Assembly (NCBI GenBank): GCA_927353735.1
Contig: CAKMIA010000001.1
Span: forward strand, 248,001-312,000
DNA: 64,000 nucleotides
Direction of reading: 5' to 3'
Source of the DNA: an uncultured Veillonellaceae bacterium
Lineage (GTDB): Bacteria > Bacillota > Negativicutes > Veillonellales > Dialisteraceae
Below are positions 13,676 through 18,282 of the stretch, in pieces. Positions within the stretch are counted from its first letter, which is position 1. Each line of letters starts with the position of its first letter. The translations under genes and the position numbers were made by a program. The notes under the pieces are model-generated. The model ran no database searches. It was not told the DNA's origin and saw only the letters and a program-made list of their open reading frames with translations.

Positions 13676-16093
13676 TTATTCCGTCCGGAAAGTAAGTGCA
13701 TCCTTGTCATCCAGCTCCACATGGAGCACCGTCTTATCCTTAAAGGCGCCCTGCAGCACCAGTTCTGCAATGGGATCTTCAATTTCCTTCTGGATCGTCC
13801 GTTTCAGCGGCCGTGCACCGTACTCAAAGTCCGATCCGTTGGCAATCAGATGATCCTCCGCCTTTTCCGTGAGATCCATCCGGATATGGAACTGATCCAG
13901 TTTCTTCTGCACCTTGGCAAGCAGCAGCTTGACAATGCTCTTCAGATTGTCCGCCGAGAGCGGATGGAACACAATGATTTCATCGATCCGGTTGATGAAT
14001 TCCGGCCGGAAAGCCCGTTTTACATCAGAAAGAATAATTTCCTTCGTTTTGTCAAAATCGGCCTCCGCCTTTTCCTTTCCTTCATCGGTCCGGAATCCCA
14101 GCTGCTTCATCTGATCCTTCAGATGCATGGAGCCGAGGTTGCTCGTCATGATGATGACGCAGTTCGTGAAATCCACAGTCCGTCCCTGCCCGTCAGTCAG
14201 GCGGCCGTCATCCAGCACCTGAAGAAGGATGTTGAAGAAATCCGCATGCGCTTTTTCCACTTCATCGAACAGAATGACGCTGTACGGATTCCGGCGCACC
14301 TGATCTGTCAGCTGACCGCCTTCCTCATAACCGACGTATCCAGGAGGCGCTCCCACGAGACGGGAGACCTCATGCTTCTCCATGTATTCCGACATATCGA
14401 AGCGAATCAGCGATTTATCACTGCCAAACAGGCATTCCGCCAGTGCCTTGGCCAGTTCCGTCTTGCCCACGCCGGTCGACCCGAGGAACAGGAACGAACC
14501 AATGGGCCGTCTCGGATCTTTCATACCTGCCCGTGCCCGGCGGATCGCCTTGGCTACGGCATGCACCGCTTCTTCCTGTCCGATGACGCGCTTATGGAGT
14601 TCCTCTTCCAGATGAAGCAGCCGTTCAGAATCACTTTCCTTCAGATTCTGCACCGGAACGCCGGTCCATTTGCTCACGACTTCTGCCACATCTTCCTCTG
14701 TCACGGTGAGATGCTCCTGATCCGAGCCTTTCCAGTCCTTCTTGAGCTGGTCCACCTCTTCCGTCAGTTTTTTGGCCTGGTCGCGATAGATAACCGCCTT
14801 TTCAAAATCCTGACTGGACACGGCTGCTTCCTTTTCCTTCAGCACACGAGCCAGCTCTTCTTCCTTTTTCCGCAGTCCTTCCGGCGTGGAAGAAGCTTCC
14901 ATACGGACTTTGGCCGCGGCTTCATCGATCACATCGATGGCTTTATCCGGCAGAAAACGGTCCGTAATATACCGGTTGGACAGCTCCACGGCACTGCGAA
15001 TGGCTTCATCCGTGATTTTGGCCTTATGGAATGCTTCATATCTGTCCCGGAGGCCTTCCAGAATTTCCACGGCTTCCTTCGGCGTCGGTTCTCCCACCTT
15101 GACCGGCTGGAAGCGGCGCTCCAGAGCGGCATCCTTTTCAATATATTTTTTATATTCCTTCAGCGTGGTGGCACCGATGCAGCGCAGTTCACCTCTGGCC
15201 AGAGCCGGCTTCATGATATTGGCAGCATCCATGGAGCCCTCCGAAGCTCCTGCACCGACCAGTGTATGGATCTCATCCACAAACAGAATCCAGTCCGGAT
15301 GCTTCTTCACTTCGTCAATGACTTTTTTCAGCCGTTCCTCAAACTGTCCGCGGTACTGCGTCCCTGCCACAACAGAGGACATATTCAGGGAAATCACATG
15401 ACAGTTTTTCAGGATCTCCGGCACATCATTGTCCACGATCCGCTGAGCAAGCCCCTCTGCAATGGCGGTCTTGCCCACGCCGGGTTCGCCGATGAGCACC
15501 GGATTGTTTTTGCTCCGGCGGGACAAAATCTGAATGACCCGCTGAATTTCTTCTCTGCGGCCAATGACCGGATCGATTTTTCCCTGCTTGGCCTTTTCAT
15601 TCAGATCGACAGCAAAATCAGAAAGATCACCGAGACTGCCGTCCTTGCCTCCCTTGCTGCTGTCCTCAGACAGCACGGTTTCAAAGGCTTTCTGCAGCTT
15701 CTCCTGCGTCACACCGAGATGCTGCAACACCTGTACGGCCAGACCGCCCTCACGAAGAAGCGCCAGCAGAAGGTGCTCTGTCCCCACATAATTGTTGCCC
15801 ATTTCATTGGCTTCTTCCACGGCCATCTGCAGAACCCGTTTCGTCCGGGGAGAGGTGTAGACTCTCTGGCCTCCGCCGAAAAAGCTCCGCTGATACAGAC
15901 CATCCAGCAGCGGCTCAATGGCCTCAGCCGTAACGCCTACCGCCTGCAGAATCTTTCCGCCGGCGCCATCCTTTTCTCTGGCAATGCCAAGCAGCAGATG
16001 CTCCGTATCCAGAGCTTCACTCCCCAGCTTTACTGCTTCTTCCGCAGCAAACTGCAGTGCCTGCTTGACACCGTCTGTATATCTGTTATCCAT
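13676..16093 (-). CDS. clpC: ATP-dependent Clp protease ATPase ClpC
   Basis: 805-residue Hsp100 unfoldase that feeds substrates to ClpP. It has two N-terminal Clp repeats (about 1-145, [11 protein letters not shown] and [11 protein letters not shown]), then D1 with Walker A GEPGVGKT at 202-209 and Walker [10 protein letters not shown]. The M-domain coiled coil (about 410-470) is typical of ClpC, and D2 carries GSTGVGKT and [11 protein letters not shown]. No UVR domain is visible in the linker. It is the last gene of the CtsR-controlled operon, 54 bp after mcsB, with AAAGGAGGG before the ATG. It should be heat- and stress-induced by loss of CtsR repression. Confidence 0.97.
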
Positions 16094-16147: not shown

Positions 16148-17206
16148 TCACAGTCCGGCTTCTGTAATCAGATTTCTCAGAAGAACCGCTCGCCATACTT
16201 CGATTTCCGGCTCCTCCATGGTTTCTTTATGGGTCATTTCCCGTACACAGGCCGAGCCGGCCGTCAGGATCAGCTTCGGGAAAAGCATCGGGTCCCGTGC
16301 AGGAAAAAGATTTTCCATAATGCCGATATGGAGCAGACCTGCGCAGGCCACAGCTTCCTCCCGGCTGATGATGCGGGCATATTTCAAAGTGCCAAGAGCC
16401 CGCCAGATCTGGTCCTTCAGCTTTCCCTCATCCTTCCGGAATACCTTCTGCCATGCCATGTTCTCAGCTTCTTCTATATCATGCAGGAGCTGTTCCATCC
16501 GTTCCGTCAGAACGGACTCCGACACGCCGAGCGTAACCATATTGGACAACTCACAGAAGCTTCCGAGTCTGTCACTCCCGCTGTACAGACTGCGCAGGGA
16601 GAACCCCTGCCGTGCAGCATTTTCTGCCATTCCTGATATGACCCCGCTTTCTACAAGTCCGGGCAAAAACAGCGCTGCGGAATACCGCAGGCCTGTCCCC
16701 GTCAGATAGGGTGACGCGGTCAGAAAACCAAATTCATGATCGAAGGCATACGTCAGATCCCTGCCAAGCTGATTTTCAAGAGATTCTGCCTTTTCCCACA
16801 GTTTCCCGGGAACAGGGCTGCCCGCCATGTACTGGATCCGGAGATGGTCCTGTCCATTGACCAGCAGTGAGCCGTCCTGTTTTTCATTGATGAAAAGCGC
16901 GGTCTGCTCACAGCCGCCCGAAAGAGCATCCGGAAGCAGCCTCTTGTTTTTTAACAGTTCTCTTTCATTCAACGAGAAGGAAGCTACAGAAAACTCGGAA
17001 AAACGCGCTGAAGTCTTTGCATTCCAGTGCGCCACGGCATTCCGGATCTCCTGAAGGACTTCCGCCTTGGCCTTTACCTCTGCCCTATGGGGAAAAGAAT
17101 AACCGGCTATATTTCTTGACAGCTGAATTCGCACCCAGAGCGTATGACCGGATGATCCGGTTCCTTCCGGAAATCTGTCCTGTCCCATCAGCTCGGAAAT
17201 ACTCAT
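16148..17206 (-). CDS. mcsB: McsB-family protein, probably catalytically dead arginine kinase
   Basis: 352 residues, homologous along its length to the protein-arginine kinase McsB, which marks proteins for ClpC. Family blocks are visible: the N-terminal RIQLSRN, QDHLRIQ, the GTGLR motif at 171-174 and SLYSGSD. The phosphagen-kinase active-site motif Asn-Glu-Glu-Asp-His is here Asn-Gly-Gln-Asp-His (117-121). The Cys of the TxCP motif is Ser165. The C-terminal phospho-Arg binding Arg-Asp-x-Arg-Arg is Ile-Glu-Val-Trp-Arg (335-339). ATP-binding arginines 123, 174 and 205 remain. It overlaps mcsA by ATGA. It may serve as a ClpC adaptor or McsA partner without kinase activity. Confidence 0.88.
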   Translation of the reverse strand: MSISELMGQDRFPEGTGSSGHTLWVRIQLSRNIAGYSFPHRAEVKAKAEVLQEIRNAVAHWNAKTSARFSEFSVASFSLNERELLKNKRLLPDALSGGCEQTALFINEKQDGSLLVNGQDHLRIQYMAGSPVPGKLWEKAESLENQLGRDLTYAFDHEFGFLTASPYLTGTGLRYSAALFLPGLVESGVISGMAENAARQGFSLRSLYSGSDRLGSFCELSNMVTLGVSESVLTERMEQLLHDIEEAENMAWQKVFRKDEGKLKDQIWRALGTLKYARIISREEAVACAGLLHIGIMENLFPARDPMLFPKLILTAGSACVREMTHKETMEEPEIEVWRAVLLRNLITEAGL

Positions 17207-17724
17207 GATTGCCCTCCCTGCTCCAGACGTTTGATTTCATCCCGAACCCGGGCTGCTTCCTCATAATTTTCTTCCTTGACCAGAGCTGCCAGCTTCGTTT
17301 TCAGCTGCTCTATCTCCGGAGAGGTTTTTTCCTCTTTACATGTATCAGCCATCCCCGGTGCCTTGCCTTCATGCTGTATTCCTTCCTGGGCCCTCCGGAA
17401 AAATGGCTTCAGGTTTTCCCGAAACGTCTCATAGCAGTCAGGACAGCCCAACATTCCTTCCTTCTGAAAGGTATCCAGCGTCGTCCCGCAGGAGCGGCAG
17501 GCCATACTGTGCAGGGCACTCATGGGATCACTCCACAAATCCCGAAACAGAGAATCATCAAACAGAGAATTCATCCAGGAGTGCATGCCTCCCATCCTGT
17601 TTCCGGCGTTCTGATACTGTTCCGCCGCACATTCCGGGCACAGATGCTCTTCCTTTCTGAGTCCGTTCACGACCTGTACATAATGCATAGTCGCTTCTCT
17701 TTTATGACAACGATCACAAAGCAT
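17203..17724 (-). CDS. mcsA: McsA, zinc-finger and UVR-domain activator of McsB
   Basis: 173-residue modulator of McsB and CtsR in the Clp stress pathway. Four CxxC pairs, CDRC (3-6), CPEC, CRSC and CPDC, bind metal. A C-terminal UVR domain (about 135-170, LAALVKEENYEEAARVRDEIKRLE) mediates protein contact. All cysteines are present, in contrast to the degraded neighbour McsB. The ATG directly abuts the ctsR stop codon (TAAATG) and follows GGAGGG. It overlaps mcsB by four bases. Confidence 0.95.
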   Translation of the reverse strand: MLCDRCHKREATMHYVQVVNGLRKEEHLCPECAAEQYQNAGNRMGGMHSWMNSLFDDSLFRDLWSDPMSALHSMACRSCGTTLDTFQKEGMLGCPDCYETFRENLKPFFRRAQEGIQHEGKAPGMADTCKEEKTSPEIEQLKTKLAALVKEENYEEAARVRDEIKRLEQGGQS

Positions 17725-18186
17725 TTATTTTCCCTCCTTTATGATCCGGCTGATCCGATGAACGGCATCCTTTACCGCGGAATGTTTCCGCTCTGCCGGA
17801 CAATGTTCCATAATGATGTCCATCAGTCCCTGCATCATCAGAAATTCACGCATCGTGATGGTTCCGGATGATACAAGCATCTGAAAATACTGTTCCATCA
17901 ATGAATCCGGATCTTTCTCTCCGGCAGTTTTCTTCTCTTTTTTTGCGGTAAGATTTTCAGTGCGGATGGAAATACGGATAAATCCGCCGCTTCCCCTCCG
18001 GGACTCTACTTGGAATCTCCGATCCGGACTGAACCGGGTATTGATGACATAAGTGACCTGTGACGGCGCACAATCCAGCAGTTCCGCCACTTCTTTTCTT
18101 TTCAATATCACGACCGGCGTCGTCTGATTTTTCAGCTGATTCAGAATGAACCTTTCTATCCGGTCGGACAGCATGTTGCTGACCAT
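17725..18186 (-). CDS. ctsR: Transcriptional repressor CtsR
   Basis: 153-residue dimeric repressor of class III heat-shock genes, inactivated by heat and removed by ClpC. The N-terminal winged helix-turn-helix is strongly conserved: KRKEVAELLDCAPSQVTYVINTRF and the tip of the wing ESRRGSGGFIRI. The C-terminal dimerisation part (about 90-150) is preserved in size. An alternative ATG four codons in would also keep the fold; the first is chosen because AAGGCAG precedes it at acceptable distance. Autoregulation is likely through the operator at 18260-18282. Confidence 0.95.
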   Translation of the reverse strand: MVSNMLSDRIERFILNQLKNQTTPVVILKRKEVAELLDCAPSQVTYVINTRFSPDRRFQVESRRGSGGFIRISIRTENLTAKKEKKTAGEKDPDSLMEQYFQMLVSSGTITMREFLMMQGLMDIIMEHCPAERKHSAVKDAVHRISRIIKEGK

Positions 18187-18252: not shown

Positions 18253-18282
18253 ATTATAAAGTCAAATGGTCAAATAGTCAAT
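18253..18282 (-). promoter_or_regulatory. ctsR promoter with three CtsR heptads
   Basis: Minus-strand TTGACT (18276-18281), 17 bp, TATAAT (18253-18258). Read on the plus strand, AGTCAAA (18260-18266), GGTCAAA (18268-18274) and AGTCAAT (18276-18282) are CtsR heptads with single-base spacers. They fill the spacer and -35. The known operator has two heptads separated by three bases, so the 8-bp period is a variant. Confidence 0.88.

Follow-up and report, generated by a model that had tools for sequence, protein, structure and literature searches.

The window, which is the whole stretch of 64,000 nucleotides analyzed here, carries an operon in the order ctsR-mcsA-mcsB-clpC. The genes and the promoter of the operon are as follows:

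18253 to 18281, minus strand: promoter TTGACT-17-TATAAT, overlapped by two CtsR-type heptads
17725 to 18186, minus strand: ctsR, heat-shock repressor, with its winged helix (DNA-binding domain) intact
17203 to 17724, minus strand: mcsA, both four-Cys zinc fingers intact, overlapping mcsB by 4 bases
16148 to 17206, minus strand: mcsB-like gene of 352 amino acids, a predicted pseudokinase (translation without a stop; alignment)
13676 to 16093, minus strand: clpC, full length, with the phosphoarginine-site glutamates of its N-domain (B. subtilis E32 and E106) kept

The two heptads, TTTGACC (18268 to 18274) and TTTGACT (18260 to 18266), have an 8-base period, whereas the tandem repeat of Bacillus and Listeria is spaced by 3 bases, and a canonical CtsR box with 3-base spacing was not found at the window operon. 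Heptads are also present, with variations, upstream of ctsR in relatives (L032, L033, L316, and L317). An earlier note on this DNA had described the mcsB-like gene as full length and in an operon with intact mcsA and clpC; the length of 352 amino acids and the complete zinc fingers and clpC bear this out.

The window gene is an mcsB by descent and fold, and its product lacks the traits that define McsB as a kinase. Its product matches the phosphagen-kinase catalytic domain (Pfam PF00217) with 114 bits against a cut-off of 22.4, and its best structure match is McsB (6fh1, E = 2e-32). The predicted structure has a mean pLDDT of 90.3 and a TM score of 0.93 to 6tv6 and 6fh1 over its full length. 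Scores are nevertheless below the NCBIfam cut-offs for protein-arginine kinase (best, 219 vs. 385 bits) and for McsB (182 vs. 500). Besides the window gene, no gene of phosphagen-kinase type was found in the genome (94% complete), which rules out another arginine kinase there. The residues that set the protein apart, along with a loop discussed below, are located at:

17123 to 17125, minus strand: Q28, replacing the second Arg of the ATP-site strand RIRLARN; R26 is kept
16844 to 16858, minus strand: N117-G118-Q119-D120-H121 in place of the N-E-E-D-H of McsB, both Glu lost (DNA and alignment)
16718 to 16747, minus strand: AFDHEFGFLT (residues 154 to 163), the loop matching the contact of S. aureus McsB with the McsA zinc finger
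16712 to 16714, minus strand: Ser165, replacing catalytic Cys167 (DNA and alignment)
16562 to 16594, minus strand: lid, residues 205 to 215, RSLYSGSDRLG for RGxYGEGSExxG (alignment)
16451 to 16453, minus strand: W252, an Arg in 99% of intact McsB (family comparison)
16190 to 16204, minus strand: I335-E336-V337-W338-R339, degraded phosphoarginine pocket (for Arg-Asp-x-Arg-Arg)

The two central replacements in the earlier note hold: NGQDH, read on the DNA, aligns with the NEEDH of solved McsB structures, and Ser165 aligns with the catalytic Cys. Two losses had been missed, that of the ATP-site Arg at Q28 and that in the lid, which in alignment has one residue fewer and no second catalytic Glu (E212), though R205 is kept. 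Four of five ATP-site Arg are thus kept, R26 and the three that the note had listed as retained (R123, R174, and R205), and the window protein may bind nucleotide. The title of the earlier note had all phosphoarginine-binding residues replaced, which goes too far; the C-terminal pocket is degraded, with its first Arg and Asp gone, but R339 is kept, and the equivalent of this residue is invariant in both intact and degraded McsB. Numbered so that the catalytic Cys becomes C167, which is 4 less than in the 6fh1 chain, the protein shows E120G, E121Q, C167S, R30Q, R337I/D338E, and, with the shortening of the lid, loss of E212; it retains the equivalents of R28, R125, R176, R207, and R341. Absence of the R337 equivalent was rejected as a marker of pseudokinases because several families with intact McsB also lack this residue.

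Catalytic and ATP positions are 99–100% conserved in 150 intact McsB sequences, which were selected by those same positions, and a set of 80 named relatives spanning many phyla is, with few exceptions, just as uniform; the changes are beyond chance. Among these 80, an altered catalytic Glu or Cys is confined to Dialisteraceae and Pectinatus. Relocation of the catalytic Glu, named in the earlier note as a way in which its reading could fail, was rejected since, in the alignment of Dialisteraceae with intact McsB, no acidic position in the active-site pocket has newly become invariant. Judged by these residues, the window McsB very probably no longer phosphorylates arginine.

Degraded McsB and the phosphoarginine phosphatase across Negativicutes

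The finding extends far beyond one gene, being family-wide and recurrent in related families. The window belongs to family f1, a family of gut bacteria, whose named members are Dialister, Allisonella, and uncultured Veillonellales (Dialisteraceae-like); its name, Dialisteraceae, rests on matching contigs. Nine of 12 Dialisteraceae genomes have mcsB, and it is degraded in all nine, one of them a fragment at a contig end. All Dialisteraceae McsB read, that of the window included, have Ser for the catalytic Cys. Because the changes are found across the family, among others in the cultured strains Allisonella histaminiformans DSM 15230 and Dialister succinatiphilus YIT 11850, assembly error and strain-level mutation were ruled out. 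R125, R176, and R207 are kept in the genus of the window and in the fragment, from genus g3, and are mostly lost in Dialister and Allisonella.

In family f3, of the same order as the window, 16 of 16 McsB are degraded in a different pattern, with Cys mostly changed to Ser, three other ATP Arg lost, and the Arg pair mostly kept. McsB is intact in the sister families f2 (four of four) and f4 (19 of 19 read). Two other f4 genomes, G056 and G058, of the same genus as G014, keep ctsR and have no match to mcsA, mcsB, or an operon-type clpC. In f14, which is tied to the name Selenomonadaceae via Pectinatus contigs, 30 of 34 McsB are altered and 4 are intact. Changes confined to Glu-to-Asp or to the lid may leave the enzyme active and were given a separate count; 15 of the 30 go beyond them. 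Erosion of the active site is graded across Selenomonadaceae, Pectinatus included (L043, L051, L164, and L214–L251), with Cys changed to Ser, Val, Tyr, or Gln, the Glu pair to Asp, and deletions in the lid. Arginine kinases with a single Glu mutation retain low activity, and trace kinase activity is possible where only one residue has changed, as in parts of Selenomonadaceae.

In a ClpC tree, Dialisteraceae are placed beside the intact f2 (SH-aLRT 99) and f3 forms a separate branch, implying separate losses. The fewest changes of McsB state on this tree is five by parsimony, a provisional count since the tree is a quick one of a single gene. At least three separate losses of the McsB kinase are likely.

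Phosphoarginine phosphatases of the YwlE type are distinguished from tyrosine phosphatases by a Thr in the loop CxGNTCRS. The earlier note had suggested looking for a YwlE homologue, and no phosphatase of this type was found in the window genome, where the loop of the sole low-molecular-weight (LMW) phosphatase reads CHGNICRS. Selectivity of these phosphatases is set by a single residue (PMC5506225). Across the class, the DNA pattern for CTGNTCR occurs in 88 of 300 genomes, yet in none of the 12 of Dialisteraceae, none of f3, and none of the Selenomonadaceae searched. Among 115 genomes in which McsB was read, the motif is present in 51 of 60 with an intact McsB versus 0 of 55 with a degraded one. 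A looser P-loop pattern recovers families f29 and f35 (CSGNTCR), two of the exceptions without the stricter motif, and has no match in any Dialisteraceae; a divergent YwlE in the family was rejected on this basis. One match, CPGNTCR in G032, was set aside as chance-like, as it is not among the LMW-phosphatase family matches of that genome.

Counted by family, the co-absence of phosphatase and intact McsB gives a Fisher p of 0.003. Independent pairs on the tree number three in the same direction and zero in the opposite direction (p = 0.25), a test that cannot reach significance with no more than three events of phosphatase loss. Even the four Selenomonadaceae genomes with intact McsB sites lack the motif, suggesting that loss of the phosphatase preceded loss of catalytic residues in this family. 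With catalytic residues gone and a YwlE-type phosphatase not found, the window genome seems to lack both the writer and the eraser of phosphoarginine. Loss of the phosphoarginine site of ClpC, considered as a third sign, is as a rule not seen with degraded McsB; its glutamates are uninformative because they are largely conserved even in genomes without mcsB.

The McsA contact and the predicted role of the window protein

S. aureus McsA uses its second zinc finger to contact the McsB loop Y147–Y153, just before the catalytic Cys (PMC12467219). Identity in this McsA-contact loop (AFDxEFGYLT) is 83% in Dialisteraceae and 86% in f3 versus 70–72% in intact kinases, and it is the only segment compared that is more conserved in Dialisteraceae and f3 than in intact kinases. 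In other segments, identity in Dialisteraceae is far below that in f2 and f4 (0.51 vs. 0.94 in the ATP strand, 0.45 vs. 0.91 in the catalytic segment, and 0.19 vs. 0.78 in the lid). Within the degraded families, no other segment compared is as conserved as this loop. The loop may be conserved for structural reasons.

McsA and McsB also vary together. In every aligned Dialisteraceae genome having mcsB, both zinc fingers of McsA retain all Cys. In the Dialister-type genomes G005 and G007 (L316 and L317), mcsB is cleanly absent between mcsA and clpC, with ctsR, mcsA, and clpC in place, and their McsA has lost the second, McsB-binding zinc finger and kept the first. These losses are probably one event, G005 and G007 being sisters in the ClpC tree. 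The gene is dispensable, since some Dialister have lost it outright. Genome G026 of f3 (L315) has no ClpC ortholog, only ClpB-like matches; its McsA has lost the first zinc finger and kept the second, and its mcsB, the most degraded of f3, is kept. This argues that a pseudo-McsB can be useful without ClpC. Going by loop and zinc fingers, binding of the pseudo-McsB to McsA is likely.

In B. subtilis, McsA binds McsB, activates the kinase, and blocks McsB from removing CtsR from DNA; oxidized McsA frees McsB, which then strips CtsR from DNA with its kinase off (PMC5506225). We suggest, with somewhat better than even confidence, that the window gene encodes a McsB pseudokinase that acts as an McsA-controlled partner of CtsR, representing the kinase-independent branch of the Bacillus switch. 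In resting cells, McsA would hold the pseudo-McsB through its second zinc finger. Oxidation of McsA thiols or loss of zinc would free the pseudo-McsB, which would pull CtsR off its operators and derepress the clp operon. The kinase-independent branch of the McsA/McsB switch would be the only one left. This branch needs no catalysis, only binding to McsA, binding to CtsR, and the thiols of McsA, of which the sequence evidence covers the McsA half. The intact DNA-binding domain of CtsR and the heptads at the operon promoter are in keeping with it. By comparison with Bacillus, removal of CtsR is slightly favored as the main job of the pseudo-McsB.

The earlier note had proposed a pseudokinase that senses McsA or delivers CtsR to ClpC without arginine phosphorylation. 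Its McsA part is well supported by fold, selection, the contact loop, the co-absence of the phosphatase, and the loss of the McsA zinc finger where mcsB is absent. Delivery is harder to sustain, and an adaptor without kinase activity, which would still hand CtsR and further clients over to ClpC or ClpX to be degraded, is, in our judgment, a doubtful though serious candidate. The substitution C167S, used for kinase-inactive B. subtilis McsB, retains part of the adaptor function, as seen in its effect on MgsR turnover (PMC7235348), and mcsB adjoins clpC in nearly all of the genomes with degraded McsB examined. However, activation of ClpC and ClpC-adaptor activity of B. subtilis McsB are reported to depend on the kinase (PMC5506225), G026 keeps mcsB without ClpC, and the Dialister that lack mcsB keep clpC. 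Direct removal of CtsR from DNA, which is kinase independent in Bacillus, fits better than delivery to ClpC.

A decaying gene, kept by chance or for the folding or balance of the operon, is unlikely. McsB does diverge faster than its neighbors (57–58% identity within the genus vs. 91–93% for ClpC), it is wholly lost from two good Dialister genomes, and ATP residues have decayed further in Dialister and Allisonella. But reading frames are open throughout Dialisteraceae, and dN/dS is well below 1, at 0.10–0.23 in Dialisteraceae, which is close to the values of intact McsB, 0.03–0.19 in f3, and 0.035–0.18 in the intact f4, with synonymous changes almost saturated between the more divergent pairs. 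The window mcsB is under purifying selection, and with the predicted fold and the operon also kept, the earlier statement that the gene has not simply decayed stands. Losses are uneven along the protein: of positions that are nearly invariant in intact McsB, Dialisteraceae keep on average 24% at catalytic and ATP sites, 57% elsewhere in the catalytic domain, and 84% in the C-terminal domain. Moreover, the full-length Dialisteraceae sequences read have invariants of their own, S165, F180, W252, V321, and W338, of which F180 replaces a His that is 100% conserved elsewhere. Decay also sits poorly with a McsA loop whose conservation exceeds that in intact kinases and with the recurrence of degraded McsB across families.

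It is highly improbable that the protein has remained a kinase whose catalytic residues have moved or whose reaction is a different one. The window genus does keep R26, R123, R174, R205, and the fold, and relatives from this genus carry a Glu in the shortened lid, but the pocket has gained no invariant acidic residue, nearly all ATP Arg are lost in other Dialisteraceae, and the phosphatase is absent.

Implications and comparison with known systems

The argument over whether McsB works via phosphoarginine or by protein binding has drawn on Bacillus mutants that mix both roles. Dialisteraceae-type bacteria offer a natural separation of functions, in which both kinase chemistry and phosphatase appear to have been lost and the McsA interface and the operon are kept. 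We give an even chance to the broader proposal that several Negativicutes lineages lost arginine phosphorylation while the McsA-McsB-CtsR switch persisted as a protein-binding, probably redox-released, switch. If true, a kinase-independent role of McsB suffices for selection in nature. In families with degraded McsB, genes annotated as protein arginine kinase probably do not indicate arginine phosphorylation. No description of a pseudo-McsB was found in the open-access literature searched.

The window protein resembles the McsB of B. subtilis, G. stearothermophilus, and S. aureus (6tv6, 6fh1, and 8gqd) in fold, length, and dimerization domain, as well as in its ctsR-mcsA-mcsB-clpC operon, McsA-contact loop, and single copy. 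It differs from them in lacking the Glu pair, the Cys, the lid Glu, one ATP Arg, and the Arg-Asp of the pocket, and in that a YwlE-type partner was not found in its genome. Like the B. subtilis C167S mutant, it has Ser for the catalytic Cys, but this Ser is natural and is accompanied by many further losses and by new invariants specific to the family. Bacterial Ser/Thr pseudokinases (PMC12599244) are likewise kinase-type proteins without catalytic residues that are kept for regulation, though of an unrelated fold, the window protein being of the phosphagen-kinase type. A further parallel is the thiol-stress switch of B. subtilis McsA and McsB (PMC5506225), with which the window system shares a predicted zinc-finger sensor holding a kinase-independent antagonist of CtsR. 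In Bacillus the kinase branch coexists with this switch, whereas in the window system, as known from its sequence, the kinase branch appears to be absent.
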